The position numbers were made by a program, and so were the translations under genes. The notes under the pieces were generated by a model. The model did not search any database. It saw nothing but the letters and a program-made list of their open reading frames with translations, and was not told where the DNA came from. A stretch of DNA of 64,000 nucleotides. Source: Desulfobulbaceae bacterium. Its GTDB lineage: Bacteria; Desulfobacterota; Desulfobulbia; Desulfobulbales; Desulfobulbaceae. Shown here piece by piece: positions 28,751-45,750 of the stretch. The stretch is taken from the NCBI GenBank assembly GCA_012744275.1, contig JAAYIE010000084.1, positions 24,344 through 88,343 of the forward strand, written 5' to 3'. Position 1 is the first letter of the stretch. Each line of letters begins with the position of its first letter.

Positions 28751-28806
28751 CCAGGCCCTTGGCAAATCATCGGGATACGTACTAATTAATAAAAGGAGGT
28801 TTGAGT

Positions 28807-29997
28807 ATGAGTGTGCAAACAGATGTGATCTCCCACGGCGGAGGACTGGTTATAACGCCATCGACGGCCTATAAACGGACGCTCTGGATTCTGACCTTCA
28901 TTACGTCTTTGGGTATTCTCTTTGGCCTGCATTCCATGATTGCCGGTCACGAGCATACCTTTGGTGTGTCGCGGGAAGTGCCGTGGGGAATGGTGCTGGC
29001 AGCTTATGTGTTCTTCGTGGTCACCTCGACTGGCCTCTGCCTGGTGTCATCGATCGGCCATGTTTTTGGCTACGAGGCCTTCAAGCCCATTGCCAAGCGC
29101 TCGGTCTACTTGGCCATAGCCACTATTGTGTCGGGTTTTCTGGTCATTTTTTTTGAAATCGAGAACCCGTGGCGCATGGCGGTATACAATGTCATCTCGC
29201 CAAACCTTACCTCGAATATCTGGTGGATGGGCACCCTGTACGGCGCATATCTGTTTTTTATGCTGATTGAATTTGCCTTGCTGCAGGTTGGTAAGCACCG
29301 GGCCGCTGGCATGAGCGGATTGCTTGGCGTGGTTTCAGGTGTGGCCGCCCACTCCAACCTGGGGGCGGTATTTGGCCTGCTCAATGGTCGTGAATACTGG
29401 CACGGGCCGTATCTGCCTATCTACTTTATTGTGTCGGCAATGATGTCGGGTTGCGCTACTATCATCTTCTTTCACTGGCTTGGCTACCGCATCAACGGCT
29501 GGAAAATGAGTGAAAAACTGCAGGAATCCCTGCGGGCGGTAGGTAAGTTGGGGGCATTGCTCTACATTGCCATCATCTTCTTCACCAGTTGGAAGATGAT
29601 CTCTGGTATCGCTGGCAAGGTCCCTGGCAAGTACGAGGCCATGATGGCGGTTACCAGCGGGCCCTATGCCGGTCTTTTTTGGTTCGGTGAGATCTTCCTG
29701 GGCCTGGCCGCGCCTTTGATCATTATTCTGGCGGTACGGGCGCGGAACATCGGGGCAATGGCCTTTGGTTCCATCCTGAGCATCATCGGCATCTTTGTCA
29801 TGCGCTATGATCTTTTGATAATCGGTCAAATCATACCTGGTTTTCACACCATGCACCTGGAAGGGGTGCCGGGCATCCTGCCCTATACACCTTCACTCCA
29901 CGAATGGATGATCACCATTGCCGGCTTTACCTTCTGCGGCATCTTGTTCATGCTGGGCGAGCGGTTTTTCCGCGGCCATCTTTCCGAAGACCATTGA
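28807..29997 (+). CDS. NrfD/PsrC-type membrane subunit (paralogue 2)
   Basis: 396 residues from ATG 28807 with AAGGAGG seven bases upstream (the track start is a TTG two codons earlier). About ten membrane spans. It shares long stretches with paralogue 1, notably TSTGLCLVSSIGHVFG, NPWRMAVYNVISPNLTSNIW and WMGTLYG. The likely role is quinol/quinone exchange for an Fe-S or molybdenum partner. The molybdoenzyme and four-cluster ferredoxin genes lie 2.9 kb further on the same strand, beyond the convergent regulator, which makes this the more likely membrane anchor. Ends at a strong hairpin. Confidence 0.88.
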   Translation: MSVQTDVISHGGGLVITPSTAYKRTLWILTFITSLGILFGLHSMIAGHEHTFGVSREVPWGMVLAAYVFFVVTSTGLCLVSSIGHVFGYEAFKPIAKRSVYLAIATIVSGFLVIFFEIENPWRMAVYNVISPNLTSNIWWMGTLYGAYLFFMLIEFALLQVGKHRAAGMSGLLGVVSGVAAHSNLGAVFGLLNGREYWHGPYLPIYFIVSAMMSGCATIIFFHWLGYRINGWKMSEKLQESLRAVGKLGALLYIAIIFFTSWKMISGIAGKVPGKYEAMMAVTSGPYAGLFWFGEIFLGLAAPLIIILAVRARNIGAMAFGSILSIIGIFVMRYDLLIIGQIIPGFHTMHLEGVPGILPYTPSLHEWMITIAGFTFCGILFMLGERFFRGHLSEDH

Positions 29998-30100: not shown

Positions 30101-32557
30101 TTATTTTTTTTGCTTTCCTCTTTCTTTTGGCGCACCCTGTTGCGACGCCTTTTTGCCTCCTCCGCTGCTGCTGCTTTCATAGGCAGCAATTTTCCTGCGG
30201 AGAGTATCCCTGGAGATTCCCAGCTCTTGGCAGGTCGCATTTCTGTGGCCATGGTTGCGGGCCAGGCTCATGAGGATGGCCTGCTTTTCTATTTCGGCAA
30301 GGGTATGCCCATGGCCTGAGGCCGTAGACTTGGTGCCATCCTGCTGGTCCTGGTCGGAAGAAAACGGTTCCGGCAGATGTTGGGGTTGAATGTAACCGCC
30401 ACTGCAGAGGATGAAGGCAAATTCAATGATGTTTTCCAACTCCCGGATATTACCAGGATACGAGTAGCGCATGAGCAGGGTCAGGGCTTCATTGTCGATA
30501 CCCGCGATGTCTTTGCCCTGTTCTGCATTGAATTTATTGATAAAGTGATCGATCAGCAGGGCAATATCCTCCCTGCGTTCCCGTAGGGGCGGCAAGGTGA
30601 TGTTGACCACATTTAAGCGGTAGAAGAGGTCATCCCGAAAAGCGCCCGTCTGCACCAGTGAGGGCAAATCGCGATTCGTGGCGGAAATAATGCGCACATC
30701 GGCATGAATCGAGGTGTTGGAACCAAGCGGTTCGTAGACTTTTTCTTGCAGTACACGCAGTAGCTTGGCCTGAACAGTGCCAGGCAGTTCCCCAATTTCA
30801 TCCAGCATAATGGTGCCGCCTTCGGCGGCAGCAAACCGCCCTTGCCGGTCCTTCTTGGCATCGGTGAAGGCGCCGGCCTTGTAGCCGAAGAGTTCCGATT
30901 CCAAGAGGGTCTCGGGTAGTGCTGCGCAGTTGACCACGATAAAAGGTTTGTCGCTGCGTTCGCTGGTGGTATGGAGCGCCCGCGCTACCAGCTCCTTACC
31001 GGTGCCGCTTTCCCCTGAAATAAGCACTGTGCTCGTGCTGCGGGCAATGTCCGGCAAGATGGCAAAAAGTCGCTGCATGGCGGCTGACTTGGAAACGATC
31101 GAGTCAAAGGTATAGCGCTGGTGCAACTGTGCGCGTAATTCGTTGATGGCACTGAGGTCGCGGAAGGTTTCCACCCCGCCGATGATAGCGCCATCATGGT
31201 CGACGAGCGGCGAGGCACTTATGCTGATGGGTACCTTTTTGCCGGTGTGATTCCGAATGGTGATGGCGCGGTTGGCCACCGGTTCGCCCGTGTACAGCGA
31301 TTCCGCAATGGCACAGTTGTTGCCGCATATGGAGGAGTGAAAAATATCGGCACAGGATTTGCCAATGGCCTCTTCCTGTCGCCAACCAGTGATCAATTCC
31401 GCTGCCCGGTTGAAGGAGGTGATTTTCCAATTTTTATCTACCGTGAATACGCCATCGGCAATGGAATCAAGGATCAACCTGCTCCGCAGGGACACAGTTC
31501 TGTCCCGCAGGATTTCTATGTTGCCGATAACATTGCCCAGGCCATCATAAAGAGGGGTAGAGCTGGCAAAAACCGGCACAGAAATTTTGCTTTTGTGCTT
31601 GATGAAGAGTGGCTGTTCGACCGGCAGGCCGCCCAGGTGTGAGGAACGTTCTGCCAGACAGTTGTTCGAGCAAAAGCTGGAACGCATGATGTCGTAGCAT
31701 CTCTGGCCGATTACCTCTGCAGCCTTCCAACCGGTGAGCCTCTCCGCTGCCCGGTTGAAGGAGGTGATGGTTTTTTCAGTATCAATGGAGAAAACGGCAT
31801 CCGCAACTGAGGCCATCACCTGCTTGATGTAAAAGGAATCAGCACAATCCTGGAAGCAGAGCACCGTTCCCTGCATCCGTCCTGACTTATCCTGAAGCGA
31901 TGAGGACCGCAGAGACAGGGTGGTATAACCTCCATCTTTTTTTGGAAAAAGGATCAGCCGAGCTGTCCGACAAATGCCGCAACCGCCTGGAGAACCAGGC
32001 AGGTGTGTGCTATCGTTGAACAGTGCCGGGAGCAGTTTGGCGGCATCTTTACCGAGAATTTCATGGCGATTCCAGCCCGTCAGCTTTTCGGCTGCGCAGT
32101 TCATCGCAACAGCCCGCATGGCCTCATCCAGTATGAGTATCCCTTCAAAAAGAATGTCGGCCACCTGTTTGTCAAGACGACAGGCTGCGTCTGGCCACAG
32201 AATAAGCACATACCGATGCACTGTGTCCGCGTCCTTCACTTCATGCCCCGAGGCGGGGAGCGTTTGCAGGATATAGATAGAACAGGGCATGGCCGCCCGG
32301 CCCGGGGAGTGCAGGTTCAGGGTAAGGTAGGGCTGCAGGGTGGTGGTGCTGCACAGTTCCAGCAGGCGGTGGCGCAGTTCGCTGTCTTCGAGGCCGCTGT
32401 CAAAGAGCTCTTCCACCGGCTTTCCTTTCAGCAGTATCCCGGGTTGACCCAGGAGTATCTCTGCCTCGCGGTTAACTTCGGTTATGCGCAAGTTCTGGTC
32501 AAGAAAGAACAGGGCCGGAAGGGGAATAAAATGTTCTGGTGTTGGCTGCGTGGTCAT
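30101..32557 (-). CDS. Sigma54-dependent activator with multiple PAS domains
   Basis: 818 residues from ATG 32557. There are four PAS-like domains (~1-100, 120-230, 240-350, 355-475), then an AAA+ sigma54 activation domain (~500-725) with Walker A GESGTGKE, the sigma54-contact loop as GAFTDA rather than GAFTGA and Walker B GGTIMLDEIGEL. A Fis-type HTH ends the protein (ILMSLARNHGHRNATCQELG). PAS 3 and 4 each hold C-x8-C-x3-C (CYDIMRSSFCSNNC, CADIFHSSICGNNC), which suggests an Fe-S or thiol redox sensor. No receiver domain is present, so it probably senses directly. Divergent from the molybdoenzyme-nuo operon; likely targets are the NrfD units or that operon. Confidence 0.92.
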   Translation of the reverse strand: MTTQPTPEHFIPLPALFFLDQNLRITEVNREAEILLGQPGILLKGKPVEELFDSGLEDSELRHRLLELCSTTTLQPYLTLNLHSPGRAAMPCSIYILQTLPASGHEVKDADTVHRYVLILWPDAACRLDKQVADILFEGILILDEAMRAVAMNCAAEKLTGWNRHEILGKDAAKLLPALFNDSTHLPGSPGGCGICRTARLILFPKKDGGYTTLSLRSSSLQDKSGRMQGTVLCFQDCADSFYIKQVMASVADAVFSIDTEKTITSFNRAAERLTGWKAAEVIGQRCYDIMRSSFCSNNCLAERSSHLGGLPVEQPLFIKHKSKISVPVFASSTPLYDGLGNVIGNIEILRDRTVSLRSRLILDSIADGVFTVDKNWKITSFNRAAELITGWRQEEAIGKSCADIFHSSICGNNCAIAESLYTGEPVANRAITIRNHTGKKVPISISASPLVDHDGAIIGGVETFRDLSAINELRAQLHQRYTFDSIVSKSAAMQRLFAILPDIARSTSTVLISGESGTGKELVARALHTTSERSDKPFIVVNCAALPETLLESELFGYKAGAFTDAKKDRQGRFAAAEGGTIMLDEIGELPGTVQAKLLRVLQEKVYEPLGSNTSIHADVRIISATNRDLPSLVQTGAFRDDLFYRLNVVNITLPPLRERREDIALLIDHFINKFNAEQGKDIAGIDNEALTLLMRYSYPGNIRELENIIEFAFILCSGGYIQPQHLPEPFSSDQDQQDGTKSTASGHGHTLAEIEKQAILMSLARNHGHRNATCQELGISRDTLRRKIAAYESSSSGGGKKASQQGAPKERGKQKK

Positions 32558-32901
32558 AATGAAAATTGAAAGCGCAAAAAAAACGGCTATCTCGTCGTGT
32601 TTGTCAAGCTTATACCTGCACACTGAGGTGTTGAGCGGAGGGTCTCTCTACGTGTCTGTACGCTGTCAGCTTTGATGTAAGAAAAAAAGATCGAAATATT
32701 AATGAGATATTTATTTAGTATCGAAAAGTCTGTGCAGGATAAAATATGAAAGAAAAATTAACCAATACCATGATACTCGGACTTCTTTGTAAGCGCTGCA
32801 GTTTTCCCTTGAAGAATTTTATCAATATGATTTATTGAACCGAATTGCGAGGTCGATTAACCGAGCGAAAATTTATCCAGGGAGGCGTCAGGATATTTTT
32901 T
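32558..32901. other. 344-bp divergent promoter region, regulator and mop-nuo operon
   Basis: AT-rich toward the middle (32680-32760). I searched by eye for TGGCAC-N5-TTGC and saw none, so the operon may use sigma70 or an unseen variant. The translation signal for the molybdoenzyme is GGGAGG at 32880 and AGGAT at 32889. Confidence 0.45.
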
Positions 32902-35004
32902 ATGGCTGAAATGAAACACACAATTTGCGGTATGTGCGCTGTCCGTTGCCCCATTACAGTGCATGTGGAAAACGGCAGACCTGTATGGCTTGAAGGTAAT
33001 GCCAACGATGCAGCCATGGGCAAAAGCCTGTGCGCCAAGGGCGGCGCAACCTTTGCCCAGCGCGATGACAAACAACGTCCCCTAGGGCCGCTGCTGCGCA
33101 TGGGCAAGCGTGGCGAAGGCCAGTGGCGGGAAGTTTCCTGGGATGAGGCTTTCTCCTTTATTACCAGCAAGCTCGAAGGCATTATTGCCGAACATGGCGG
33201 GCGCGCGGTTATGATGTCCGACCGGGGCGGTCCCTTTGCTGATCTGCGTCAAGCCTTTATGAAGGCCATCGGTTCGCCCAACTATATGAACCATGACTGT
33301 ACCTGCGGCCGCAACACCCACCATGCTTCCCGTTCCGTGTACGGTATGGGCCGCAAAGACTTTGCCTATGATTATGAAAATGCTCGCCATATAGTCCTGT
33401 TTGGGCGTAACATCACTGAATCCCTGCGGGTGAAGGAAGTGAAAAGCGTGCTCAAGGGACTAAAAAACGGTGCGCATCTCACCTATATTGATCCGCGGTT
33501 TTCGGTGACCGCCGGTAAGGCTACCAGGTACTGGCAAATCAAGCCAGGTACCGACTATGCTCTGTTGTTGGCCATTGCCCATGTTGTAGTCGACAAGGGG
33601 TACTATGATGCTGAGTTCGTTGAGCGCTATGTCACCGGCCTTGATGAATTCAGGACTTTTCTCGGGCCCTACACTCCTGAATGGGCGGAAAAGGAAACCG
33701 GCATCAAGGCGAAAGATATTGAGGCTTTTTGTTTCCAGATCAATGAAGACCGGCCTAAGGTAATTTTTCATCCTGGTTGGATGTATACTCGTTATCGGGA
33801 CTCGTTTTATGCCTCCCGCATGTTGCATATTTTGAACGCCCTTATGGGATCAATTGAACAGAAGGGCGGCCTGTTCTATGTTAAAGGTGCCAAAGATGCG
33901 GGCAAAAAAGGTTTGAAGAGCATTGCTGGTTCCATTCCAGCGGTCAAGGAAGAACGCGCCGATGGGTGTGGTTCCCGCTATCCCTACTTCGACACCAGCG
34001 GAGGCATGCTCCACCTGGCCTTTGATGCGTTGGACAAGGCTGATCCTTACCCGATCAAGGCGTATTTTATTCACAGGCACAATCCGCTCATCGCCCTGCC
34101 CGATCCAGTCGAGCAGCGGCGCATTCTCGACAAGCTGGATCTAATCGTATCGGTTGATGTCAACTACAGTGAATCGGCTTGGTATGCGGATGTCATCTTA
34201 CCGGAAAACACCTATCTCGAGCGTGGCGATATTCTGCGCATGGAGAAAGGATTGAAGCCGGGTTTCGGACGGCGGCAGCAGTGTGTTGTGCCACTCAATA
34301 ACACCAAGGCGGGTTGGGAAATCTACTTGGAACTGGCGCGGCGACTGGGCAAGGAAGAATATCTGCCCTTCAAGACCTTGGAAGACATTTGGGCCTTCCA
34401 GTTACAGGATACTGATGTCTCCATCGAGGATTTCGATGCTAAGGGTTTTGTCAAGCTGAGCCAGGACGCCATCTGGTACGACCGTGACAAGCTTAGTTTT
34501 GGCACGGAGTCTGGCAAGATCGAGCTGTTCAACCAAAAGCTCGAGTCGCAGGGGGTTCCCTCCTTTATCCCGTACACTGCTCCGGAGGAGGCTCCAGCAG
34601 GAAGCTTCAGGCTGCTCTATGGTCGCTGCGGCTACCAGGCCCACGGGCAGCATCAGAACAATCCGATTTTGTCACAGCTGCTGGATGAAAATCACCTGTG
34701 GATTCACCCCGAGCCTGCAGCTGAACTCGGTATTAAGGAAGGTGACCTGGTTGAAGTTAGCAGTGGCGATGTCACTGGACATATCCGCGCCAGAGTAACC
34801 AACATGATCCATCCTGAGGCGGTTTTTATGTTGCATGGTTTCGGTACGCAGGTGCCGTTGCAGAAGCGGGCCCTGAACAAAGGGCTTGCAGACCAAATTT
34901 TTATGCAGGGAAAACTGACCGACTGGGACAAGGCCGGAGGTGGAGTCAATATTTGTCAGAGTTTCGTCACCATTAAGCCGGCGGTCAGCCAGGAGCTGAA
35001 ATAA
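32902..35004 (+). CDS. Molybdopterin oxidoreductase, PsrA/PhsA-like catalytic subunit
   Basis: 700 residues from ATG 32902. N-terminal [4Fe-4S] ligands C9-x2-C12-x3-C16-x27-C44 (CGMCAVRC, SLCAKG). The molybdenum region GSPNYMNHDCTC aligns with the H-x3-C pattern of polysulfide/thiosulfate reductases, so Cys135 is the probable metal ligand. The C-terminal molydopterin-binding domain begins near 590. No twin-arginine or other export signal is visible, unlike periplasmic PsrA/PhsA, so it should be cytoplasmic. Its TAA overlaps the ATG of the ferredoxin gene, and nuoA-N follow in the same operon. The substrate cannot be read from sequence; polysulfide, thiosulfate or a role as complex I partner are options. 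Confidence 0.9.
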   Translation: MAEMKHTICGMCAVRCPITVHVENGRPVWLEGNANDAAMGKSLCAKGGATFAQRDDKQRPLGPLLRMGKRGEGQWREVSWDEAFSFITSKLEGIIAEHGGRAVMMSDRGGPFADLRQAFMKAIGSPNYMNHDCTCGRNTHHASRSVYGMGRKDFAYDYENARHIVLFGRNITESLRVKEVKSVLKGLKNGAHLTYIDPRFSVTAGKATRYWQIKPGTDYALLLAIAHVVVDKGYYDAEFVERYVTGLDEFRTFLGPYTPEWAEKETGIKAKDIEAFCFQINEDRPKVIFHPGWMYTRYRDSFYASRMLHILNALMGSIEQKGGLFYVKGAKDAGKKGLKSIAGSIPAVKEERADGCGSRYPYFDTSGGMLHLAFDALDKADPYPIKAYFIHRHNPLIALPDPVEQRRILDKLDLIVSVDVNYSESAWYADVILPENTYLERGDILRMEKGLKPGFGRRQQCVVPLNNTKAGWEIYLELARRLGKEEYLPFKTLEDIWAFQLQDTDVSIEDFDAKGFVKLSQDAIWYDRDKLSFGTESGKIELFNQKLESQGVPSFIPYTAPEEAPAGSFRLLYGRCGYQAHGQHQNNPILSQLLDENHLWIHPEPAAELGIKEGDLVEVSSGDVTGHIRARVTNMIHPEAVFMLHGFGTQVPLQKRALNKGLADQIFMQGKLTDWDKAGGGVNICQSFVTIKPAVSQELK

Positions 35005-35507
35005 TGAGTAAGTATCACGTTCTTCAGGATGTCAAGGACTGCATCGGCTGCCGCGCCTGCGAGGTACACTGCAAGGAAAAGAACAGCAGCGGCCCCGGGG
35101 TGTACAACTGTAAAATGGTCGAAGTTGTCGCACCTGCAGGTAAGAAGATGCGGGTGGATTATGTCTATCTTTCCTGCTTCCACTGCAAGAAGCCGTGGTG
35201 CGTGGATGCCTGTCCCACTGGAGCGATGCGTCAGCGCGATGAAGACGGCATTGTCTATGTGGAAGGAGCCTCCTGTGTTGGCTGCAAAGCCTGCATCACC
35301 GCTTGTCCCTGGACAGTACCGCAGTGGAATCCGGAAACCGGTAAGGTGGAAAAATGCGATCTGTGCAAGGACAGGATCGATGCTGGCCTAGAGCCGGCCT
35401 GTGTCACTAAGTGCACCACCGGCTGCCTTACCTTCACCACGCCTGCAAAGGCATCGCAGGCGAGCCGTCAGGCCTTTGCCGAACGGATCATGAAGCACAG
35501 ACGCTGA
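35004..35507 (+). CDS. Four-cluster ferredoxin subunit (PsrB/DmsB/NrfC type)
   Basis: 167 residues. Four [4Fe-4S] motifs in the order typical of electron-transfer subunits of molybdoenzymes: CIGCRACEVHC, CFHCKKPWCVDACP, CVGCKACITACP and CDLCKDRIDAGLEPACVTKC. It overlaps the catalytic-subunit stop (TAATG) and ends 10 bp before nuoA. It should relay electrons between the molybdenum centre and a membrane or complex I partner. No signal peptide, which fits a cytoplasmic complex. Confidence 0.93.
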   Translation: MSKYHVLQDVKDCIGCRACEVHCKEKNSSGPGVYNCKMVEVVAPAGKKMRVDYVYLSCFHCKKPWCVDACPTGAMRQRDEDGIVYVEGASCVGCKACITACPWTVPQWNPETGKVEKCDLCKDRIDAGLEPACVTKCTTGCLTFTTPAKASQASRQAFAERIMKHRR

Positions 35508-35517
35508 GGCGGCGAAC

Positions 35518-35886
35518 ATGGACTTCATTCCCCGCGAATACCTGGGTATTCTGCTACTCCTGCTGTTTGGCTCGCTCTTTGGCGTGCTGACCTTGTTTAT
35601 TGGTCGTTTTTTCCGTCTGAGCAGGCCCTACCGCGAAAAGCTGATTGCATACGAATCGGGCAATGAACCGACGGAAGAGCCGCGTATGCGTTTTTCCGTC
35701 AAGTTTTATCTCATCGCCATCCTCTTTGTTCTGTTTGATGTGGAAGCAATCTATCTCTACCCCTGGGCTGTCACCTACGATTTTTTAGGTCTTTTTGCCT
35801 TGATTGAGATGCTGCTCTTCATCTTTCTGCTCCTGGTCGGCTATGTGTATGCCTGGAAAAAAGGTGCTCTGGAGTGGACAAAATGA
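35518..35886 (+). CDS. nuoA: NADH-quinone oxidoreductase subunit A
   Basis: 122 residues, three membrane spans, with the conserved loop [15 protein letters not shown] and [25 protein letters not shown] that mark NuoA. It begins 10 bp after the ferredoxin gene and overlaps nuoB by ATGA. It is part of the membrane arm at the junction to the quinone site. Confidence 0.96.
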
Positions 35887-36395
35887 GCCAGGACAAGATA
35901 GTTCAGCTGCCCGATGGTTTGCGACTTTTTCCTGGCGCAGGCGCCATTCTTGGGCCCCTCGATAAGCTGGTAAACTGGGGTCGGGCTGGTTCCATCTGGC
36001 CGGTAACCTTTGGCCTTGCCTGCTGCGCCATTGAAATGATGGATGCCGGCGCTTCCACGAATGACCAGGATCGTTTCGGTATTCTGTTCCGCGCCAGCCC
36101 AAGGCAGGCCGATTGTATGGTGGTAGCTGGCACCCTCTCCAAAAAAATGGCACCGGCACTGCGCCGTGTCTACGATCAGATGCCAGAGCCGCGTTATGTG
36201 ATGGCCATGGGAAGTTGCGCCTGCAGCGGTGGCGTATTTGATACCTATGCGGTGACACAGGGAGTTGACCAGATCGTGCCGGTGGATGTGTATGTACCGG
36301 GTTGCCCGCCGCGCCCGGAGGCCCTGTTGGAAGGTTTTCTCAAACTGAAGGAAAAAATACTGGCTGAAGAGTTCCGATGGAGCAACGTGCGATAG
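35883..36395 (+). CDS. nuoB: NADH-quinone oxidoreductase subunit B
   Basis: 170 residues from ATG 35883 (the track begins at a GTG nine bases earlier). It carries the N2-cluster cysteines: [14 protein letters not shown] (two adjacent Cys), GSCACSGG and [14 protein letters not shown]. It donates electrons to quinone together with NuoD. Overlaps nuoA by ATGA and nuoC by 19 bases, so translation is coupled. Confidence 0.97.
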
Positions 36396-37057
36396 CCGAT
36401 ACCCTCAAGGTGCAGTTCCCTGAAGAGGTGCTTGATATTATCGAACACCATGATCAGGTCGGGGTTCTGCTCCGGCCTGACCGGATTGTGCCGATCCTGC
36501 GCTGGTTGCGGGATACGGACTATCTCTGCATGGACCATTTGCGTGCCCTGTGCGGTGTAGATAACAAAAGACGGCAAACATCATATTCCGAGCGTTTTGA
36601 GGTAGTATACCAGCTCTATTCCACTTCCCTGCGCCACGGGATCCGCCTGCGGGTACTGCTGCCCGAAGAGGACGCCCACGTGGAGTCGGCGGTTTCCCTG
36701 TGGCCGGGAGCCAATTGGCTGGAGCGTGAAGTCTTTGACATGTTCGGCATCCGTTTTGACAACCATCCCAACATGAGACGGGTACTGTTGCCCGACGATT
36801 GGGTAGGGCATCCCCTGCTCAAGGAATATCCACTTAAGGGCAAAAAAGAATGGCAGGGTTTGGTGGATCTCAAAAAATTGGCACGAGAGTTGGATCAGCA
36901 CGGATTTTATCCACCACCGCTGGCAGACGAAAAGAAGACCGTTCCGGTCAAGACTGTTGCCAAGGCCGTCAAGGCTGCAGTAGCAGTTGAACCCACAGAC
37001 GGTACGGCTCCTGCTGAAAAAATGGCAAAAACACTGCGTGAGAGGGATCAGGCATGA
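36377..37057 (+). CDS. nuoC: NADH-quinone oxidoreductase subunit C, with extra tail
   Basis: 226 residues. The 30-kDa subunit domain is clear ([10 protein letters not shown]..., [37 protein letters not shown]). After the normal end at about residue 180 comes an additional ~40-residue tail rich in Lys, Ala, Val and Pro ([15 protein letters not shown]) of unknown role. It is separate from nuoD, as in Thermus and unlike the NuoCD fusion of E. coli. Its stop overlaps nuoD by ATGA. Confidence 0.95.
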
Positions 37058-38283
37058 GTGATACCGCCAGGCAGACGGTGGAAGTGCCGGTCGCCACGGG
37101 TGACGAAGATCGTTACCGGTTGCGCATGGGGCCGCAGCATCCCGCTACCCACGGGGTTCTGCGGGTTGATTTGGAACTGGACGGCGAAACTATCGTCGCT
37201 TGCGACCCCCAGGTCGGCTATCTGCACCGTGGTATCGAAAAACTGGCCGAAAACCGCACCTATGCTCAAGCCCTCATCCTGACCGACCGGCTGGATTACA
37301 TCGCGGCCATGTCGAACAACTGCGGCTTCTGTGTGGCAGTGGAAAAGCTCCTCGCCATCTCGCCGCCTTTGCGCGCCCGGTATATCCGCACCATCGTGAA
37401 CGAGATGTCGCGACTGTCCTCGCATCTGCTGTGGCTGGCCACGCATGCGCTGGATATCGGTGCCATGACAGTCTTTTTGTACTGCTTTCGCGAGCGAGAG
37501 ATGCTGCTGGAACTCTTTGAGGAGTTGTGCGGCGCGCGTCTTACCTTCTCTTATCCTCGCATCGGTGGGGTGCGTCAGGATGTGAGCGCATCATTTATTA
37601 GCGGTTTACAGCATTTTATTGATATCTTCCCGGAAAAGATCCTGGAATATGAAACCCTTATCGACACCAACCGGATTTGGCTGAAGCGGACGGTCGGTAT
37701 CGGCAAGGTCTCGGCAGAAGAGGCGCTTGGGCTTGGCCTGACCGGAGCTTGCCTGAGGGCATCGGGTGTAGACTACGACATTCGTAAGCACCAGCCCTAT
37801 GACGCTTACGACCTGGTTGACTTTGAAGTACCCATAGCCATGGAGGGCGACAGCTACGCCCGTTACCGCTGCCGCATGGAAGAAATGCGACAGTCGGTGC
37901 GTATCCTGCAACAGTGTGTCGACCAGTTGCCACCCGGCCCTATCGTGAGCGAGGATGCGCCGGATCTGCACATGTCGCAGCGGATTATACCGTTTCGCGA
38001 GGCACGGGTCAGCAGTTACGGCACCGCCCTGATTGCTCTTTCCCACAAAACCAAGCCCACCTATCCCTCCGGTGACATCTATGTGGCCACCGAAGTTCCC
38101 AAGGGTGAATTGGGCTTCTATATTATTTCCGACGGCTCACCGCGGGCTTACCGCATGCATATCCGTTCCCCATCCTTCATCCACATCAGTGCGTTGCCTG
38201 CACTATCTGAAGGGGGGCTGGTGGCTGATCTCATTACCAATATCGGCAGTATTGATGTGGTGCTGGGCGAGTCTGACCGGTGA
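37054..38283 (+). CDS. nuoD: NADH-quinone oxidoreductase subunit D
   Basis: 409 residues. 49-kDa subunit motifs: MGPQHPATHGVLR at the N-terminus, YLHRGIEKLAENRTY, the NNCGFCVAVEKLL and RGSGVDYDIRKHQPYDAYD-like segment, and a C-terminal DVVLGESDR. It forms the quinone pocket with NuoB and is related to NiFe hydrogenase large subunits but lacks their metal cysteines. Central in the operon. Confidence 0.97.
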   Translation: MSDTARQTVEVPVATGDEDRYRLRMGPQHPATHGVLRVDLELDGETIVACDPQVGYLHRGIEKLAENRTYAQALILTDRLDYIAAMSNNCGFCVAVEKLLAISPPLRARYIRTIVNEMSRLSSHLLWLATHALDIGAMTVFLYCFREREMLLELFEELCGARLTFSYPRIGGVRQDVSASFISGLQHFIDIFPEKILEYETLIDTNRIWLKRTVGIGKVSAEEALGLGLTGACLRASGVDYDIRKHQPYDAYDLVDFEVPIAMEGDSYARYRCRMEEMRQSVRILQQCVDQLPPGPIVSEDAPDLHMSQRIIPFREARVSSYGTALIALSHKTKPTYPSGDIYVATEVPKGELGFYIISDGSPRAYRMHIRSPSFIHISALPALSEGGLVADLITNIGSIDVVLGESDR

Positions 38284-38298
38284 GTTGAGGAGAACTGT

Positions 38299-39264
38299 AT
38301 GCACATTCTCATCCTGCTTTTCTATATAGTGATTCTCTTCGCAGTGGTCATGCTGCACGTTGCTTACGCCACGTATTTCGAGCGCAAGATCATCGGCCAT
38401 ATGCAGGTGCGCATGGGGCCGATGGAAGTTGGTTGGCACGGCTTGCTTCAGCCCATTGCCGATGGCGTCAAATGCTTTTTTAAGGAAGATGTCATCCCTG
38501 AAAACGTGGATGCCTTCGGCTTCCGCATGGCACCAGTGGTCAGCCTTGCCGCCATGGTCGGAGCACTGGCGGTACTGCCCTTTGCCCCGGGCTGGGTCAT
38601 CGCGGATATCGATATCGGCCTGCTCTATATCTTCGCCATGAGTGGACTTGCCAGCTATGGTGTTATCCTGGCCGGATGGTCATCCAATTCGAAGTTCAGT
38701 TTCCTGGGCGGACTTCGATCCATGGCCCAGGTGATCAGTTATGAAATCGCCATGGGGCTCAGCCTGGTTGGGGTCATGCTGCTCTCGGGCTCCCTGAACC
38801 TGACCACCATTGTCGAAGCGCAGAGCGGCACTTTTGGCGGCATGTACATTTTTCCGCAAATTATCGCCTTCGGCATTTTTTTTGTGGCGATGCTCGCCGA
38901 GACAAACCGGGTACCCTTCGATTTACCCGAAGCCGAAGCAGAGCTGGTTTCCGGCTATTCCACAGAATACAGCGGCATGCGCTACGCCATCTTTTTCATG
39001 GCAGAGTATGTGGGCATGCTGGTTATGTCCGCTTTGGGTACGATTTGCTTTTTCGGTGGCTGGAGCGGCCCCTTTGCGGTTCCGTTCTTCCCGGCGCTGT
39101 GGTTCGTACTCAAGGTGTATGCCTTCATGTTTGTATTTATCTGGATACGGGCCACCATGCCGCGCTACCGTTACGACCAGCTCATGGAACTGGGCTGGAA
39201 ATGGCTCATCCCGCTTGCCCTGGCCAACATCGTGGTCACGGCAGTGTGCAAGGTTTTGTTCTGA
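38299..39264 (+). CDS. nuoH: NADH-quinone oxidoreductase subunit H
   Basis: 321 residues with eight or nine membrane spans. Conserved blocks are YFERKIIGHMQVRMGP, PIADGVKCFFKED, the NRVPFDLPEAEAELVSGY loop and RATMPRYRYDQLMELGWK. It links the quinone pocket to the proton channels. Preceded by GAGGAG. Confidence 0.97.
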   Translation: MHILILLFYIVILFAVVMLHVAYATYFERKIIGHMQVRMGPMEVGWHGLLQPIADGVKCFFKEDVIPENVDAFGFRMAPVVSLAAMVGALAVLPFAPGWVIADIDIGLLYIFAMSGLASYGVILAGWSSNSKFSFLGGLRSMAQVISYEIAMGLSLVGVMLLSGSLNLTTIVEAQSGTFGGMYIFPQIIAFGIFFVAMLAETNRVPFDLPEAEAELVSGYSTEYSGMRYAIFFMAEYVGMLVMSALGTICFFGGWSGPFAVPFFPALWFVLKVYAFMFVFIWIRATMPRYRYDQLMELGWKWLIPLALANIVVTAVCKVLF

Positions 39265-39279: not shown

Positions 39280-39918
39280 ATGCAGATTCAATACAAAAAA
39301 AAGCGTAACCTGCTGCAAAACTTGCTGCTGGTAGAGTTGGTGCAGGGCATGTGGCTCACTTTGCGCCGTTTGTTCACCAAACCCATCACCCTGCAGTATC
39401 CCCACGAACAGCCCAATGTGCGGCGTGGGTTTCGTGGGCAGCACGCCTTGGTGCGCGATCCGCACAGCGGCACCACCAGGTGTATCGGGTGCATGAAATG
39501 CGCAATGGTGTGTCCATCTCGCTGCATTCGTATCCGCATCCATAAGGAGCCCGAGCACGGCAACCGCCGCTTTATTGACGAGTATAATATTGATGTACTG
39601 CGCTGCGTGTACTGCGGTTACTGTGCCGAAGTGTGCCCGGTGAATGCGATTATCCTCACCGAGGTTTTTGCATATTCCGCCTTTGATCGTAAAACTCTTG
39701 CCTACGACATGCCCAAGCTGCTCGACAATTGGGATGACTACCTCAGTGAACAGGGTGAGCATTTGGAGAGTTATGCCAATCCTACCTGGAGGCCGCGTGG
39801 CTTACCCGAAGGCACTTTGCCAGTGGGCAAACGTCTGCCCGTATCCGATGAATGGAAAGGGGAAGGGCAGGTGGTGGGCAGGTTATGGCGTCAATCCGTT
39901 CAAGGTCAGAACAGGTAG
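39280..39918 (+). CDS. nuoI: NADH-quinone oxidoreductase subunit I (ferredoxin)
   Basis: 212 residues. Two [4Fe-4S] motifs: CIGCMKCAMVCP and CVYCGYCAEVCP. It has the usual N-terminal amphipathic helix region (LLLVELVQGMWLTLRRLF) for membrane contact. It carries electrons to NuoB. In complexes without NuoEFG this subunit is one place where a reduced ferredoxin-type partner could donate. Confidence 0.96.
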   Translation: MQIQYKKKRNLLQNLLLVELVQGMWLTLRRLFTKPITLQYPHEQPNVRRGFRGQHALVRDPHSGTTRCIGCMKCAMVCPSRCIRIRIHKEPEHGNRRFIDEYNIDVLRCVYCGYCAEVCPVNAIILTEVFAYSAFDRKTLAYDMPKLLDNWDDYLSEQGEHLESYANPTWRPRGLPEGTLPVGKRLPVSDEWKGEGQVVGRLWRQSVQGQNR

Positions 39919-39922
39919 AGGC

Positions 39923-40504
39923 ATGTTTATCCCCATATATTTTTGGTACAGTGCGTTTGTGATCGTGCTTTGCGGCCTTTTGGCCATAAGCCTGCGCAAT
40001 CCGGTGCACAGCGTGCTGGCGGTTCTGGTGCTTTTTTTCCACATGGCAGGACTGTATCTGCTGCTCCAGGCTGAGTTCCTGGCCGCGGTACAGATCATTG
40101 TCTATGCCGGTGCTATCCTGGTGCTCTATCTCTTTGTCCTCTTTCTGGTGAACCTTAAAGAGGAACTCAAAGTGAGCGCCTTTGTTCCTGGGGTGTGGCT
40201 GGGGCGGGGCATAGCAGCAGGCCTTTTTGTGCTTTTATTGTGGGCGTTGCCCTCCTTCACTGCCGGGATGAAGGGAAGTTGGCCCAGTGCCGCTGTGACG
40301 CAGGCCGGTCATACTAAGGCCTTGGGTGCCGAACTTTTCACCCAGTATCTTCTGCCCTTTGAAATTGCGGGCACCATTTTGCTGGTGGCGCTGATTGGCG
40401 GGCTGGTGCTGGCGGCCAGGGTCGGGCAGGCGGATCGTACCGAAAAAACCGCACGGAGTGCGGGACAAGAAACAACACCGCAACCCAGGGAGGAGCAGTC
40501 ATGA
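39923..40504 (+). CDS. nuoJ: NADH-quinone oxidoreductase subunit J
   Basis: 193 residues from ATG 39923 with AGGTAGAGG in front; the track ORF runs back through nuoI. Five membrane spans; VQIIVYAGAILVLYLFVLFLV is the NuoJ signature (pi-bulge helix). It overlaps nuoK by ATGA. Confidence 0.95.
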   Translation: MFIPIYFWYSAFVIVLCGLLAISLRNPVHSVLAVLVLFFHMAGLYLLLQAEFLAAVQIIVYAGAILVLYLFVLFLVNLKEELKVSAFVPGVWLGRGIAAGLFVLLLWALPSFTAGMKGSWPSAAVTQAGHTKALGAELFTQYLLPFEIAGTILLVALIGGLVLAARVGQADRTEKTARSAGQETTPQPREEQS

Positions 40505-40803
40505 TTCCATTGCACTGGTACATCGGCCTTGCCTCTGCGCTTTTTTGCATAGGGGTGTGCGGTTTTCTCACCCGCCGCAATGTCATCATGATGCTCTTGT
40601 CTGCGGAACTTATGCTTAATGCGGTGAATCTGAATCTGGTGGCCATGAGCCATTACCTGGAATCTCTGCGCGGGCATGCCTTCACCTTCTTTGTTATCAC
40701 CGTGGCAGCGGCCGAAGCGGCCATCGGCTTGGGTATCGCCATTGCTCTGTACCAGCATCGCCGCAGCGTGCATACGGATTCCTTCACCGACCTGAAAGGT
40801 TAG
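40501..40803 (+). CDS. nuoK: NADH-quinone oxidoreductase subunit K
   Basis: 100 residues, three spans. Conserved acidic residues sit in the ELMLNAVNLNLVAM segment and AAAEAAIGLGIAIAL near the end. MrpC-like antiporter relative. Confidence 0.97.
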   Translation: MIPLHWYIGLASALFCIGVCGFLTRRNVIMMLLSAELMLNAVNLNLVAMSHYLESLRGHAFTFFVITVAAAEAAIGLGIAIALYQHRRSVHTDSFTDLKG

Positions 40804-40805
40804 TC

Positions 40806-42728
40806 ATGCCGATATCGCTACTCGCTATTCCTTTTTTGCCTCTGGCAGCCTTTGTGCTGACCCTGCTGCTCGGCAAACAGATGGGAACCAGGGCGCACTG
40901 GCTGCCCATTATCGCGGTACTGATCTCCTTTTGCTGCGCAGTTGCAGCATTTTTCCGGGTACAATCGGACGAGATCATCAACCAAGATATCTACACTTGG
41001 ATCAGCTCTGGTGAGTTCAAGGTTTCCGTTGGTTTCCTCGTAGATCAGCTCACAGCGGTCATGCTCCTGGTGGTCACCAGTGTCAGTTCGCTGGTGCATA
41101 TTTATTCAGTGGGCTATATGCGGGGCGAGGCTGGGTATTATCGTTTTTTCGCCTACTTGAGCCTGTTCACTTTTTCCATGCTTATGCTGGTGATGGGTAA
41201 CAACTTCCTGCAGCTTTTTTTCGGCTGGGAAGCGGTGGGTCTGTCTTCCTACCTGCTCATCGGTTTTTATTTTGAAAAAAATTCGGCTGCTGATGCAGGT
41301 AAAAAAGCCTTTATCGTCAATCGCTTTGGTGATTTTGGTTTTCTACTAGGCCTTTTGCTCATCTTCACCCAGTTCGGCAGCCTCCACTATGCCGAGGTTT
41401 TTGGGCTTGTACCGAACATTGATGGTAAATCCATTCATCTGCTGGGTATGGAGATACTCCTGCCCACTTTAATTGCCCTGTTGCTGTTTTGCGGCGCTAT
41501 TGGCAAGTCAGCCCAAATTCCACTCCATGTCTGGTTGCCGGATGCCATGGAGGGTCCCACTCCGGTGAGCGCGCTCATCCATGCCGCCACCATGGTAACC
41601 GCCGGTGTTTTTCTGGTTGCTCGTTGCAACCCGCTCTTTGCCCTCTCCCCCTTTGCCCTGGACTTCATCACCGTGCTCGGGGCCATTACCGCACTCTTCG
41701 CGGCAACCATCGCACTCGTGCAAACGGATATCAAACGGGTTGTGGCCTATTCCACAGTGAGCCAACTGGCGTATATGTTCATCGCCTGCGGCGTGGGCGC
41801 TTATGCAGCCGGCATTTTTCACCTGTTCACCCACGCTTTTTTTAAGGCCTTGCTCTTTCTTGGTTGCGGTTCGGTCATCTTGGGTATGCACCATGAGCAG
41901 GATCTACGCTCCATGGGTGGCTTGAAGAAATACATGCCTATCACCTACTGGACCTTTCTCCTGGCATCGCTTTCGATCTCTGGTGTGCCACCCTTTGCCG
42001 GCTTTTTCAGTAAGGATGAAATTTTATTGATGGCCTTCAACTCGGGCTCTCCGGCTGGCCAGTTTGCCTTCTGGATCGGACTTTTCGTCGCCTTTCTCAC
42101 CGCTTTCTACTCATTCCGCCTGCTCTTTTTAGTCTTTCATGGCGAATTTCGCGGTACAACCGAACAGAAAAAGCATGTGCACGAATCACCCTTGGTGGTC
42201 ACCGCGCCGCTCATGATTCTGGCGCTGGGGGCGATCGCCTCCGGTTGGTTCGGTATCCCGGCGGGATTGGGTGGGTCCAACCATTGGGCCCAGTTCCTCG
42301 AACCAGTGTTGGGACACCCGCATGTGCAACTTTCCCATGGTGCTGAGCTTGGTCTGATGTTGATTTCGGTGGCCGCTGGTGCTGGCGGTATCGTCCTCGC
42401 CTTTTTCATGTACCGTAAGCGGCCCGAACTGCCCTCGCATCTGGCCAACCGTTTTGCAGGCGCATATCGGGTACTGCTCAACAAGTACTATGTGGATGAA
42501 CTGTACCAATTTGCCATTGTCAAGCCCTCCCTGTGGTTCAGCCAGCACGTTCTCTTGCGGGTGTTTGATATACGCGGCATAGAGGGGGTGGTTAATGGCC
42601 TGCCGCGGTTGATTGGTGCCTTTGCCAATAAATTGCGTCTGTTGCAGGATGGAGCAGTTTCGCACTATCTGGCGTGGATGGGCGGTGGGGCACTGGTGCT
42701 GCTTGCCCTGCTGCTGACCAGATACTAA
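40806..42728 (+). CDS. nuoL: NADH-quinone oxidoreductase subunit L
   Basis: 640 residues, the full family length with the long lateral-helix C-terminus. Antiporter-like core with the conserved LFFGWEAVGLSSYLLIGFY (proton-channel Glu), the PLHVWLPDAMEGPTPVSALI region (Lys/His site) and HAFFKALLFLGCGSVI. Distal proton pump of the membrane arm. Confidence 0.97.
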   Translation: MPISLLAIPFLPLAAFVLTLLLGKQMGTRAHWLPIIAVLISFCCAVAAFFRVQSDEIINQDIYTWISSGEFKVSVGFLVDQLTAVMLLVVTSVSSLVHIYSVGYMRGEAGYYRFFAYLSLFTFSMLMLVMGNNFLQLFFGWEAVGLSSYLLIGFYFEKNSAADAGKKAFIVNRFGDFGFLLGLLLIFTQFGSLHYAEVFGLVPNIDGKSIHLLGMEILLPTLIALLLFCGAIGKSAQIPLHVWLPDAMEGPTPVSALIHAATMVTAGVFLVARCNPLFALSPFALDFITVLGAITALFAATIALVQTDIKRVVAYSTVSQLAYMFIACGVGAYAAGIFHLFTHAFFKALLFLGCGSVILGMHHEQDLRSMGGLKKYMPITYWTFLLASLSISGVPPFAGFFSKDEILLMAFNSGSPAGQFAFWIGLFVAFLTAFYSFRLLFLVFHGEFRGTTEQKKHVHESPLVVTAPLMILALGAIASGWFGIPAGLGGSNHWAQFLEPVLGHPHVQLSHGAELGLMLISVAAGAGGIVLAFFMYRKRPELPSHLANRFAGAYRVLLNKYYVDELYQFAIVKPSLWFSQHVLLRVFDIRGIEGVVNGLPRLIGAFANKLRLLQDGAVSHYLAWMGGGALVLLALLLTRY

Positions 42729-42758: not shown

Positions 42759-44261
42759 ATGCCTCTGCTCAGTGTTCTCATCTTTTTTCCAATACTCGGT
42801 GGCCTCTCCCTTCTGTTTGTAGAGCGGAAAACCGAGACCGTGCGACTGGTTGCCCTTGTGGTCAGCCTATTCGAGCTGGTCTTCACACTGCCAGTTTTTT
42901 TCCTGTTCGATAAAACTACGCACCTGATGCAGTTCAGGGAGCAGCACGATTGGATCAGCGCCCTCAACATCAACTACGCCCTTGGTATAGACGGCATCAG
43001 TGTGCTTTTTGTGCTTTTGACTGCGCTGATCACCGTCTTATGTGTGCTGGTGTCCTGGGAGAGTATTCAGGAAAAGGTCAAGGAATTTTATATCGCCCTG
43101 CTCGTATTGGAAGGGGCAATGATGGGCGTCTTTTGCGCCTTGGATTTCTTTCTTTTCTACGTGTTCTGGGAGGCTATGCTCATCCCCATGTTTCTCATCA
43201 TCGGGGTCTGGGGCGGGCCAAACCGGCTCTATGCCACAATCAAGTTCTTCCTCTACACTCTGGTGGGCAGTCTGCTCATGCTGGTGGGTATTATTCTCCT
43301 GTACCTTGGGGCTGGTCGGACCTTTGATGTTATTGCCCTGGCTGGTCAGGCCTATCCATTCAAACTGCAGCTTCTGGTCTTCTGGCTCTTTTTTGCAGCC
43401 TTTGCCGTCAAGGTGCCGATGTGGCCGGTGCATACTTGGTTGCCCGATGCCCATACTGAAGCACCAACTGCAGGTTCAGTCATCCTTGCCGGTGTACTGA
43501 TTAAGATGGGGGCATACGGTTTCCTCCGTTTTTCACTGCCGATGCTGCCGCAGGCCACCATAGCCATGCTCACCCCCATGCTGGTGCTCTCCGTGATTGC
43601 CATTGTTTATGGGGCAATGGTCTGCCTTGCACAAACCGATCTGAAACGCCTGGTAGCTTACAGTTCGGTAAGCCACATGGGCTTTGTTACCTTGGGCCTC
43701 TTTGCCCTCAATCAGCAAGGTCTTGAAGGCAGTATCCTGCAGATGATCAACCACGGGCTGGTTACCGGGGCACTCTTTCTTGCCATCGGCATCGTGTATG
43801 AGCGGACCCACACTCGCGAGATTGCAGCCTACGGTGGCTTGGCCACCACCATGCCCGTTTTTGCCGGTTTTTTTATGGTCTTTACCTTGGCGGCCGTGGG
43901 CTTGCCCGGCACCAACGGTTTTATTGGCGAATGGCTTATTCTGCTCGGCGCTTTTAGGGCCCAGCCGGTATATGCGGTGATCGCAGCCACAGGTCTTATT
44001 CTCGGTGCCTGGTACATGCTTTGGCTGTATCAGCGCATTTTTTTCGGTGGGGTGGGCGAGCAGGTTCGCAGCCTCATCCCGCTCAATGTGCGTGAAATTG
44101 TGACACTGGTGCCGTTGGTGCTGCTTATTTTCTGGATCGGTATTTATCCTGATGCACTGCTGGATTTCCTCCGGGTTTCCGTGGGCCACCTGGTGGAACA
44201 GGTGCATGGCGCCACCGGACTGGCTGAAGCCGGGCAAACAGCCCTGATGCCCATCCCCTGA
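42759..44261 (+). CDS. nuoM: NADH-quinone oxidoreductase subunit M
   Basis: 500 residues, about 14 spans. Diagnostic FYVFWEAMLIPMFLIIGVWG, the MWPVHTWLPDAHTEAPTAGS loop and INHGLVTGALFLAIG. Middle antiporter-like subunit. Confidence 0.97.
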   Translation: MPLLSVLIFFPILGGLSLLFVERKTETVRLVALVVSLFELVFTLPVFFLFDKTTHLMQFREQHDWISALNINYALGIDGISVLFVLLTALITVLCVLVSWESIQEKVKEFYIALLVLEGAMMGVFCALDFFLFYVFWEAMLIPMFLIIGVWGGPNRLYATIKFFLYTLVGSLLMLVGIILLYLGAGRTFDVIALAGQAYPFKLQLLVFWLFFAAFAVKVPMWPVHTWLPDAHTEAPTAGSVILAGVLIKMGAYGFLRFSLPMLPQATIAMLTPMLVLSVIAIVYGAMVCLAQTDLKRLVAYSSVSHMGFVTLGLFALNQQGLEGSILQMINHGLVTGALFLAIGIVYERTHTREIAAYGGLATTMPVFAGFFMVFTLAAVGLPGTNGFIGEWLILLGAFRAQPVYAVIAATGLILGAWYMLWLYQRIFFGGVGEQVRSLIPLNVREIVTLVPLVLLIFWIGIYPDALLDFLRVSVGHLVEQVHGATGLAEAGQTALMPIP

Positions 44262-44286
44262 ATGTCAGATAGGATCCACAACTGTG

Positions 44287-45750
44287 ATGACTGATCGGCT
44301 ACTTGTTCTGAATCCCGCCGCCTTTAACTGGGGCATGATCACCCCGGTGCTGCCGGAATTGATCCTGCTGGCTGTTGGCGTTGTCCTGGTGGCGCTTGAT
44401 CTTTTTGCTCCCCGTCAACGCCAATTGCTGCCTTGGATGACTGTGCTTGGCGTGTCCGCGGTATTGCTGATGAATCTCGGCATGTCTGTGCCGCCTGAAG
44501 CGGGAATCATGCTCCTGAATGACGGCTATACAGCCTTTTTCTGTACGCTTTGCTTGGGCAGTGTCATCCTGACAGCGTTGATGCGCGAAATGTACAGCGA
44601 GCAGATGCAGGCACATCATGGAGAATTTTACAGCCTGATGGTCTTTTCTGCAGTGGGTATGATGGTGATGATCGCGTCTGTCGATCTGATGACCATTTTT
44701 CTCGGCCTCGAGTTGATGGCTCTACCGCTCTATGTCCTTATTGGTATGCATAAAAAGGAGTTTCGTACCAGTGAGGCAGCAGCGAAATATTTTCTTATGG
44801 GAGTTTTTGCCTCGGCCTTGTTGCTTTTTGGTATGTCTCTGCTTTTCGGTCTCAGCGGCAGTACCAACCTGGCTGAAATTGGTACCTACATCAAGAGTCA
44901 CAGCCTTGCCTCCAACCCGGCTCTGGTGACAGCGCTTGCCTTGCTTGTGGCAGGGCTTTGTTTCAAGGTGGCGGTTGTTCCCTTCCACATGTGGACACCA
45001 GATGTGTATGAAGGTGCGCCCACAGTGCTGACCGCTTTTATGAGTGCAGGGCCAAAAGCGGCCGGCTTTGCTGTATTTGGTCGCATCATGCTGACTGTTT
45101 TTCCGGAACTGGAACCAAACTGGGGCCCGGTACTGGTTATGCTCGCGGTATTGACCATGGCGGTCGGTAACATCGTGGCCCTGGTACAGAACAGCTTAAA
45201 ACGCATGCTCGCCTATTCCGCCATTGCCCATGCCGGCTACGCCTTACTGGGAATTGCAGCGGGTACTGCCAGTGGTATGGCCGCAGCCATGAGCTATCTC
45301 TTTATCTATCTGTTTATGAACATGGGGGCCTTTGCCATCCTCATTATTTTTTCCCGCGGTCAGGAAGAGCATGAATCCATACATTGCTGCCAGGGGATGG
45401 CAGCTAAACATCCGGTACTGGCTCTGTGCATGCTGATTTTCATGTTTTCCCTTACCGGTATTCCACCAACCGGTGGTTTCACCGGCAAGTTTTACCTGTT
45501 TCAATCGGCACTGGCCGCTGGTTATACTGTGCCAGTGATAATGGCGGTGCTGCTCAGCGCGGTGTCTGCCTTTTTCTACCTGCGCATTATTCGCCTGATG
45601 TATATGGGTGCGCCTGAAGGCCAGGTCACCATTAATTCCCCTACTGTTGGGATTTTGGTGGTCCTGGGAGTGGCCGTGGCCGGTACCATTTTGCTGGGCG
45701 TTGCACCAGGAGCACTCTTTGACTGGGCGCAGCGTGCGATGCTGCCGTAA
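44287..45750 (+). CDS. nuoN: NADH-quinone oxidoreductase subunit N
   Basis: About 487 residues from ATG 44287 (a GTG directly before is the alternative). Core motifs: FLGLELMALPLYVLIG, VPFHMWTPDVYEGAPTVLTA and NSLKRMLAYSAIAHAGYALLG. Last gene of the nuo series. The operon contains no nuoE, nuoF or nuoG. Confidence 0.97.
   Translation: MTDRLLVLNPAAFNWGMITPVLPELILLAVGVVLVALDLFAPRQRQLLPWMTVLGVSAVLLMNLGMSVPPEAGIMLLNDGYTAFFCTLCLGSVILTALMREMYSEQMQAHHGEFYSLMVFSAVGMMVMIASVDLMTIFLGLELMALPLYVLIGMHKKEFRTSEAAAKYFLMGVFASALLLFGMSLLFGLSGSTNLAEIGTYIKSHSLASNPALVTALALLVAGLCFKVAVVPFHMWTPDVYEGAPTVLTAFMSAGPKAAGFAVFGRIMLTVFPELEPNWGPVLVMLAVLTMAVGNIVALVQNSLKRMLAYSAIAHAGYALLGIAAGTASGMAAAMSYLFIYLFMNMGAFAILIIFSRGQEEHESIHCCQGMAAKHPVLALCMLIFMFSLTGIPPTGGFTGKFYLFQSALAAGYTVPVIMAVLLSAVSAFFYLRIIRLMYMGAPEGQVTINSPTVGILVVLGVAVAGTILLGVAPGALFDWAQRAMLP

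Follow-up and report, generated by a model that had tools for sequence, protein, structure and literature searches.

The phsA-phsB-nuoABCDHIJKLMN operon described here probably encodes a complex I in which NuoEFG is replaced by PhsAB, a cytoplasmic molybdenum (or tungsten) oxidoreductase of sulfur compounds, coupled to menaquinone. This arrangement suggests that sulfur chemistry, and not NADH, is wired to this proton pump of a Desulfobulbus-type bacterium. Many anaerobes possess a complex I devoid of NuoEFG whose feeder is often unknown, and PhsAB is a concrete candidate head for one class of these complexes, tied to sulfur chemistry. From the conservation of the locus, the swaps of the head and the exclusivity of its partners, the link between PhsAB and nuo looks functional. 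The operon lies in a window of 64,000 nucleotides (the whole stretch of DNA that was analysed) from a Desulfobulbus-type sulfate reducer, as indicated by same-genus loci named Desulfobulbus and by the presence of dsrA in the genome. The draft assembly comprises 159 contigs and has a contamination of 3%; the phsA-nuo operon recurs in independent genomes.

The catalytic subunit is encoded by a phsA-like gene on the forward strand (32902..35004), whose product of 700 amino acids, MAEMKHTICGMCAVRC, is a Mo/W-bisPGD oxidoreductase with an N-terminal [4Fe-4S] cluster, Cys135 as Mo ligand and no export signal. The protein starts with MAEMKHTICGMC, the [4Fe-4S] motif begins at residue 9 and its four cysteines (C9, C12, C16 and C44) are invariant. 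The ATG at 32902 is preceded by a ribosome-binding site, AGGA, located 8 bases 5'. The earliest opening of the reading frame is a TTG at 32845, which limits any extension to at most 19 residues, MRGRLTERKFIQGGVRIFF, and neither an RRxF[LIV] motif nor a hydrophobic stretch was identified in them. No Tat or Sec signal was found in PhsA, upstream codons included. In the AlphaFold model (mean pLDDT 94.3, pTM 0.93) the first strand of the Fe-S domain begins with high confidence at residue 2, so no space is left for a signal. The sequence-only reading, which had placed the Fe-S motif at residue 9 of a protein devoid of a twin-arginine signal, is thus borne out by the open reading frame, the upstream codons and the model. 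A Tat signal supplied by an earlier start, named beforehand as an outcome that counts against a cytoplasmic enzyme, is ruled out by the 19 open codons without such a motif.

The context of the Mo ligand is H131-D-C-T-C135-G, with Gly136 following the cysteine. Cys135 is kept in 95 of the 96 signal-less homologues and in the 12 Tat-bearing ones, and aligns with Cys173 of the Thermus polysulfide reductase (Psr), presumably the Mo ligand of that enzyme. The proposal that the H-x3-C pattern denotes a cysteine ligand outside the formate dehydrogenase type is supported by this alignment and by the Gly, not His, that comes next. PhsA carries the Pfam domains of the Mo/W-bisPGD fold, and Thermus Psr was its best match both by sequence among PDB entries (8e-110) and by fold (2vpw, TM 0.91, the next being 0.88). 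The score against the NCBIfam PhsA model NF012032 was 554.8 bits, below the cut-off of 694, which is reached by none of the homologues scanned (548-558 bits in signal-less and 446-580 in Tat-bearing proteins). At aligned, probably active-site positions PhsA differs from Psr: R108 for His145, W293 for Arg332 and H637 for Arg689. R108, R169, R392 and H637 are fixed in the signal-less clade, and the exported relatives mostly differ there. Given the differences from Psr, the enzyme may act on a substrate other than those of Psr and Phs. PsrA, PhsA and SrrA are classed as periplasmic in a survey of the superfamily, and their family covers polysulfide, thiosulfate, selenite and sulfur (PMC10100899).

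Homologues of PhsA at E <= 1e-100 were identified in 121 of 395 genomes of the phylum, and a tree was built from 108 representatives (96 signal-less and 12 Tat-bearing) plus PDB references. The 96 signal-less proteins form one clade (SH-aLRT 100), with the 12 Tat-bearing Psr/Phs proteins and Thermus Psr apart; clustering with exported enzymes, the other outcome named beforehand as refuting, is therefore absent. Formate dehydrogenase references fall outside the Psr/Phs clade. The Tat label requires a single change on this tree and linkage to nuo at least eight. The main nuo-linked clade comprises Desulfobulbus and its neighbours (12 rows, SH-aLRT 99) and includes the window protein. All 18 same-genus loci checked preserve the order phsA-phsB-nuoA, which is seen in other families too; the cultured species D. 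rhabdoformis (L057) is among the carriers of the operon. The sequence-only reading had asked for a distinct clade always beside nuo genes: the clade exists in Desulfobulbus and neighbours, and the "always" does not hold. In its strict form the rule fails for the signal-less clade as a whole, whose wider members also pair with NuoF-like flavoproteins or TauE/SafE genes, and one genome (G019) has nuo without phsAB.

The electron-transfer subunit is encoded by phsB (35004..35507, forward strand), whose first base is also the last base of the phsA stop codon. Its product of 167 amino acids has no signal and contains 18 cysteines, 16 of them in four [4Fe-4S] motifs; it is PsrB/NrfC-like and matches the PsrB-like Fe-S subunit of Thermus (5.5e-29). 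Ten bases further begins nuoA (35518..35886), followed on the same strand by nuoB (35874..36395; NF005012, 241 bits against a cut-off of 116), nuoC (36377..37057; TIGR01961, above cut-off), nuoD (37054..38283; TIGR01962, 503.8 bits against 459), nuoH (38299..39264; assigned by translation and orthologous gene order) and nuoI (39280..39918; TIGR01971, above cut-off), the latter with a C-terminal extension. The mechanical reading frame of nuoJ is 39644..40504, its true start being probably just after nuoI. The set is completed by nuoK (40501..40803) and the antiporter-like pump subunits nuoL (40806..42728), nuoM (42759..44261) and nuoN (44284..45750). The genes overlap or nearly touch. The Q-module (B, C, D and I) and the membrane arm (A, H, J, K, L, M and N) are present in the operon, and nuoEFG, the NADH module, was not found in it.

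A PAS-containing sigma-54-dependent regulator is encoded divergently (30101..32623, reverse strand) and is conserved only in the closest relatives. From its position it could be guessed to regulate the phsA-nuo operon. Matches to the sigma-54 promoter TGGCACN5TTGC are no more frequent in the window than in shuffles and none lies directly 5' of phsA, so the link between regulator and operon remains a guess. Between 25867 and 29997 the window encodes a MerR-like regulator and a pair of NrfD-like membrane proteins, one on each strand, kept only in the two closest relatives (loci L051 and L059). The same genome has a second nuo cluster (contig C125) which includes nuoE, F and G, a third (contig C64) which lacks NuoEFG and has nothing attached, and a Tat-bearing PsrA-like protein (L064) preceded by an open reading frame that, by its sequence, looks like a TorD-type chaperone. 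Outside the window operon, loci L065, L066 and L067 of this genome thereby hold the nuo cluster with nuoEFG, the bare NuoEFG-less one and, in addition, a group 4 hydrogenase-like cluster.

Changes of head were identified in two groups of loci. In L074 and L077, from the family of the window, a nuoB/D/A tree places nuo with Desulfobulbus (100/99), and the identities are 77-84% for nuoA, 84-85% for nuoB and 63-67% for PhsB. With an identity of just 51%, their PhsA belongs to another signal-less subclade, and a tree constrained to place it in the nuo-linked clade is worse by 133 log-likelihood units (AU p 2.6e-94). The placement of their PhsB with Desulfobulbus has weaker support (92). In L194, from a distant family, nuo falls inside the Desulfobulbus clade (98/93, nuoB 84% identical), and PhsA, 41% identical, groups with PhsA from its own family. 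On these sequences, at least twice a PhsA head has apparently been swapped for another signal-less PhsA on a kept chassis, or the chassis has moved to a new head. PhsB follows nuo while PhsA does not, which agrees with PhsB as the bridge between both.

When the search is started from nuo, phsA adjoins the gene in 13 of the 14 genomes with NuoD homologues of at least 62% identity, the case of G370 spanning a contig break. The remaining one, G019 (L245), is a complete genome of the same genus in which nuoA-N is intact, nuoD is 77-80% identical and phsAB was not found; such a Nuo can therefore use another donor. Among 73 signal-less phsA loci with adequate flanks, nuo adjoins 18, a NuoF-like flavoprotein 26 and both none (Fisher p 1.2e-4, a descriptive value, as the loci are related and phylogeny is uncorrected). 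One NuoF-like partner continues after its NuoF-like N-terminus into an NAD(P)-binding pyridine nucleotide-disulfide oxidoreductase and Fer4 domains. TauE/SafE transporter genes are near 38 of the 73 loci, three of them with nuo too.

Several other arrangements were observed. A TauE/SafE transporter is encoded together with phsAB and nuo in the three loci L143, L145 and L207; in L207 a second Fe-S gene of the four-cluster type lies between phsB and nuoA, and a pair consisting of a kinase and a sigma-54 regulator is present as well. In L140 and L198 phsAB is directly 3' of nuoL-nuoM-nuoN-like genes, with no Q-module visible nearby. In genomes of 1.6-2.1 Mb from family f40 (L246, L247, L249, L250 and L251) a PhsB-like Fe-S protein precedes nuoA-N, PhsA is absent, a pattern that counts against the proposed complex, and several genomes of this family carry a second nuo operon. 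In a large set of loci (L141, L154, L165, L169, L209, L211 and others) signal-less phsAB precedes the gene of a NuoF-like flavoprotein, which in some cases is joined to a disulfide-oxidoreductase domain that binds NAD(P). The enzymes of these loci are candidates for cytoplasmic thiosulfate reductases linked to NAD(P)H, and possibly the unassigned soluble enzyme of Desulfovibrio.

In the proposed mechanism PhsA would hold the Mo/W-bisPGD active site and PhsB would relay electrons through four [4Fe-4S] clusters to NuoI/NuoB, while the NuoABCDHIJKLMN core would exchange them with menaquinone, coupled to proton translocation. By analogy with HycB, whose position and cluster count it shares, PhsB may be the natural bridge to NuoI. 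The docking through PhsB, the sulfur substrate and the reversible operation are inferred, as is the direction of electron flow, which would be a menaquinol-driven reduction of thiosulfate powered by the proton gradient and reversible. Thiosulfate is the most likely substrate and polysulfide the next. During disproportionation, electrons released by the oxidation of sulfite would be passed uphill to thiosulfate by the complex. Menaquinone has an E0' of -74 mV. That of thiosulfate is -402 mV (PMC3949148). The computed cost of the transfer from menaquinol (MKH2) to thiosulfate is about 63 kJ/mol, and four protons at 160-180 mV give 62-70; the cost lies within the four-proton supply, which makes PhsAB-Nuo plausible as a reversible device. 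If the reverse operation is true, it accounts for the reduction of thiosulfate (-402 mV) in the cytoplasm from menaquinol. A bolder extension, put forward tentatively and rather unlikely, is that PhsAB-Nuo, with complex I running backwards, is the machine for reverse electron transport whose existence has long been postulated in thiosulfate reduction and disproportionation, and that it represents one version of a modular platform in which PhsAB alternates between complex I and NuoF-type flavoproteins as partners.

The complex might act on something other than thiosulfate (polysulfide, sulfite, a selenium or arsenic oxyanion, or a DsrC-type persulfide), a possibility of some substance though not the expected outcome: the clade-specific changes relative to Psr/Phs, the NCBIfam PhsA cut-off that no scanned homologue reaches and the wide range of the PsrA/PhsA/SrrA family (PMC10100899) are in its favour, whereas the TauE/SafE neighbours and the proteomics of thiosulfate disproportionation (PMC9751629) indicate sulfur oxyanions. 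It is unlikely that PhsAB is a separate soluble cytoplasmic enzyme fed by ferredoxin or NAD(P)H, with nuo only co-regulated and complex I fed by ferredoxin. This would suit the G019 genome, which retains nuo without phsAB, the 26 relatives paired with a NuoF-like flavoprotein, others with no obvious partner, and the second NuoEFG-less nuo set of the window's own genome, which has nothing attached. However, PhsA has been replaced repeatedly at the nuo locus while PhsB tracks nuo, the nuo and NuoF partners never occur together, and merely 10 bases separate phsB from nuoA.

Two further readings are very improbable. An inward-facing Psr-type complex anchored by the NrfD-like protein at 28801-29997 would draw on the presence of this NrfD/HmcC-like gene about 3 kb upstream, but the divergent regulator intervenes and the gene occurs only in the two closest relatives, being missing in other Desulfobulbus loci; no NrfD/PsrC-type anchor was found within the phsA-nuo operon, and synteny largely refutes this role. 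A formate dehydrogenase head, which would make a formate:quinone complex I resembling formate hydrogenlyase, could explain the HycB-like four-cluster subunit in an analogous position and the weaker matches of PhsA to formate dehydrogenase models (238.8 bits). This reading is nevertheless rejected on the ligand context, with Gly and not His after Cys135, and on the tree, sequence and fold, which all place PhsA with Psr. The genes automatically annotated as PhsA in sulfate reducers can be divided into an exported and a cytoplasmic class, which differ in their energetics.

Parts of this arrangement have been described before. NuoEFG-less Nuo with an unknown donor has been reported in sulfur disproportionators (PMC12142623, PMC4911364) and NuoEFG-less Nuo also in oral Desulfobulbus (PMC3608642), and Candidatus Desulfobulbus rimicarensis expresses phsAB, TauE/SafE and nuoABCDHIJKLM (PMC7117923). 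A search of open-access literature turned up no description of the signal-less clade, of the head swaps or of NuoF as the alternative partner. The evidence from head swaps and partner exclusivity is new to our knowledge; novelty is otherwise limited.

The closest precedent is Thermodesulfovibrio sp. N1, where PsrAB (THER_0567/0568) adjoins a nuo cluster without NuoEFG (THER_0569-0582) and a coupling of proton transfer to sulfur redox was suggested in 2016 (PMC5165239). Compared by description, it resembles the window in that genes for both Psr/Phs subunits, the catalytic one and the Fe-S one, adjoin a nuoABCDHIJKLMN set from which nuoEFG is missing, so that the PhsAB-nuo kind was already known at this level; it differs in belonging to the phylum Nitrospirota, and the passages of that report on these genes do not mention whether its catalytic subunit bears a signal and contain neither experiments nor an analysis of distribution, swaps or partners. 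In Desulfolithobacter dissulfuricans, of the same family as the window, the consecutive tags GF1_30490-30520 are PhsA-1, PhsB-1, Nuo and NuoB. Thiosulfate disproportionation was the sole condition in which Nuo (GF1_30510/30520) was seen; the level of PhsA-1 rose only slightly there and the protein was not abundant, which weighs against the proposed complex (PMC9751629). By description the order phsA-phsB-nuo-nuoB is equivalent, and the lack of subunit C is noted by the authors; that paper makes no remark on the linkage (PMC9751629). The Thermus thermophilus PsrABC (2vpw) has the equivalent Cys ligand, the best match in sequence and fold and a PsrB-like subunit, but it is membrane-anchored and on the exported side of the tree, whereas the window PhsA lacks a signal and PsrC and differs at Psr positions 145, 332 and 689. 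Finally, formate hydrogenlyase (FdhF-HycB on a complex I-like membrane hydrogenase) has an FDH-family Mo enzyme and a hydrogenase instead of the quinone site; as in the present proposal, its complex I-type core carries, where NuoEFG would sit, a Mo enzyme together with an Fe-S protein of four clusters.
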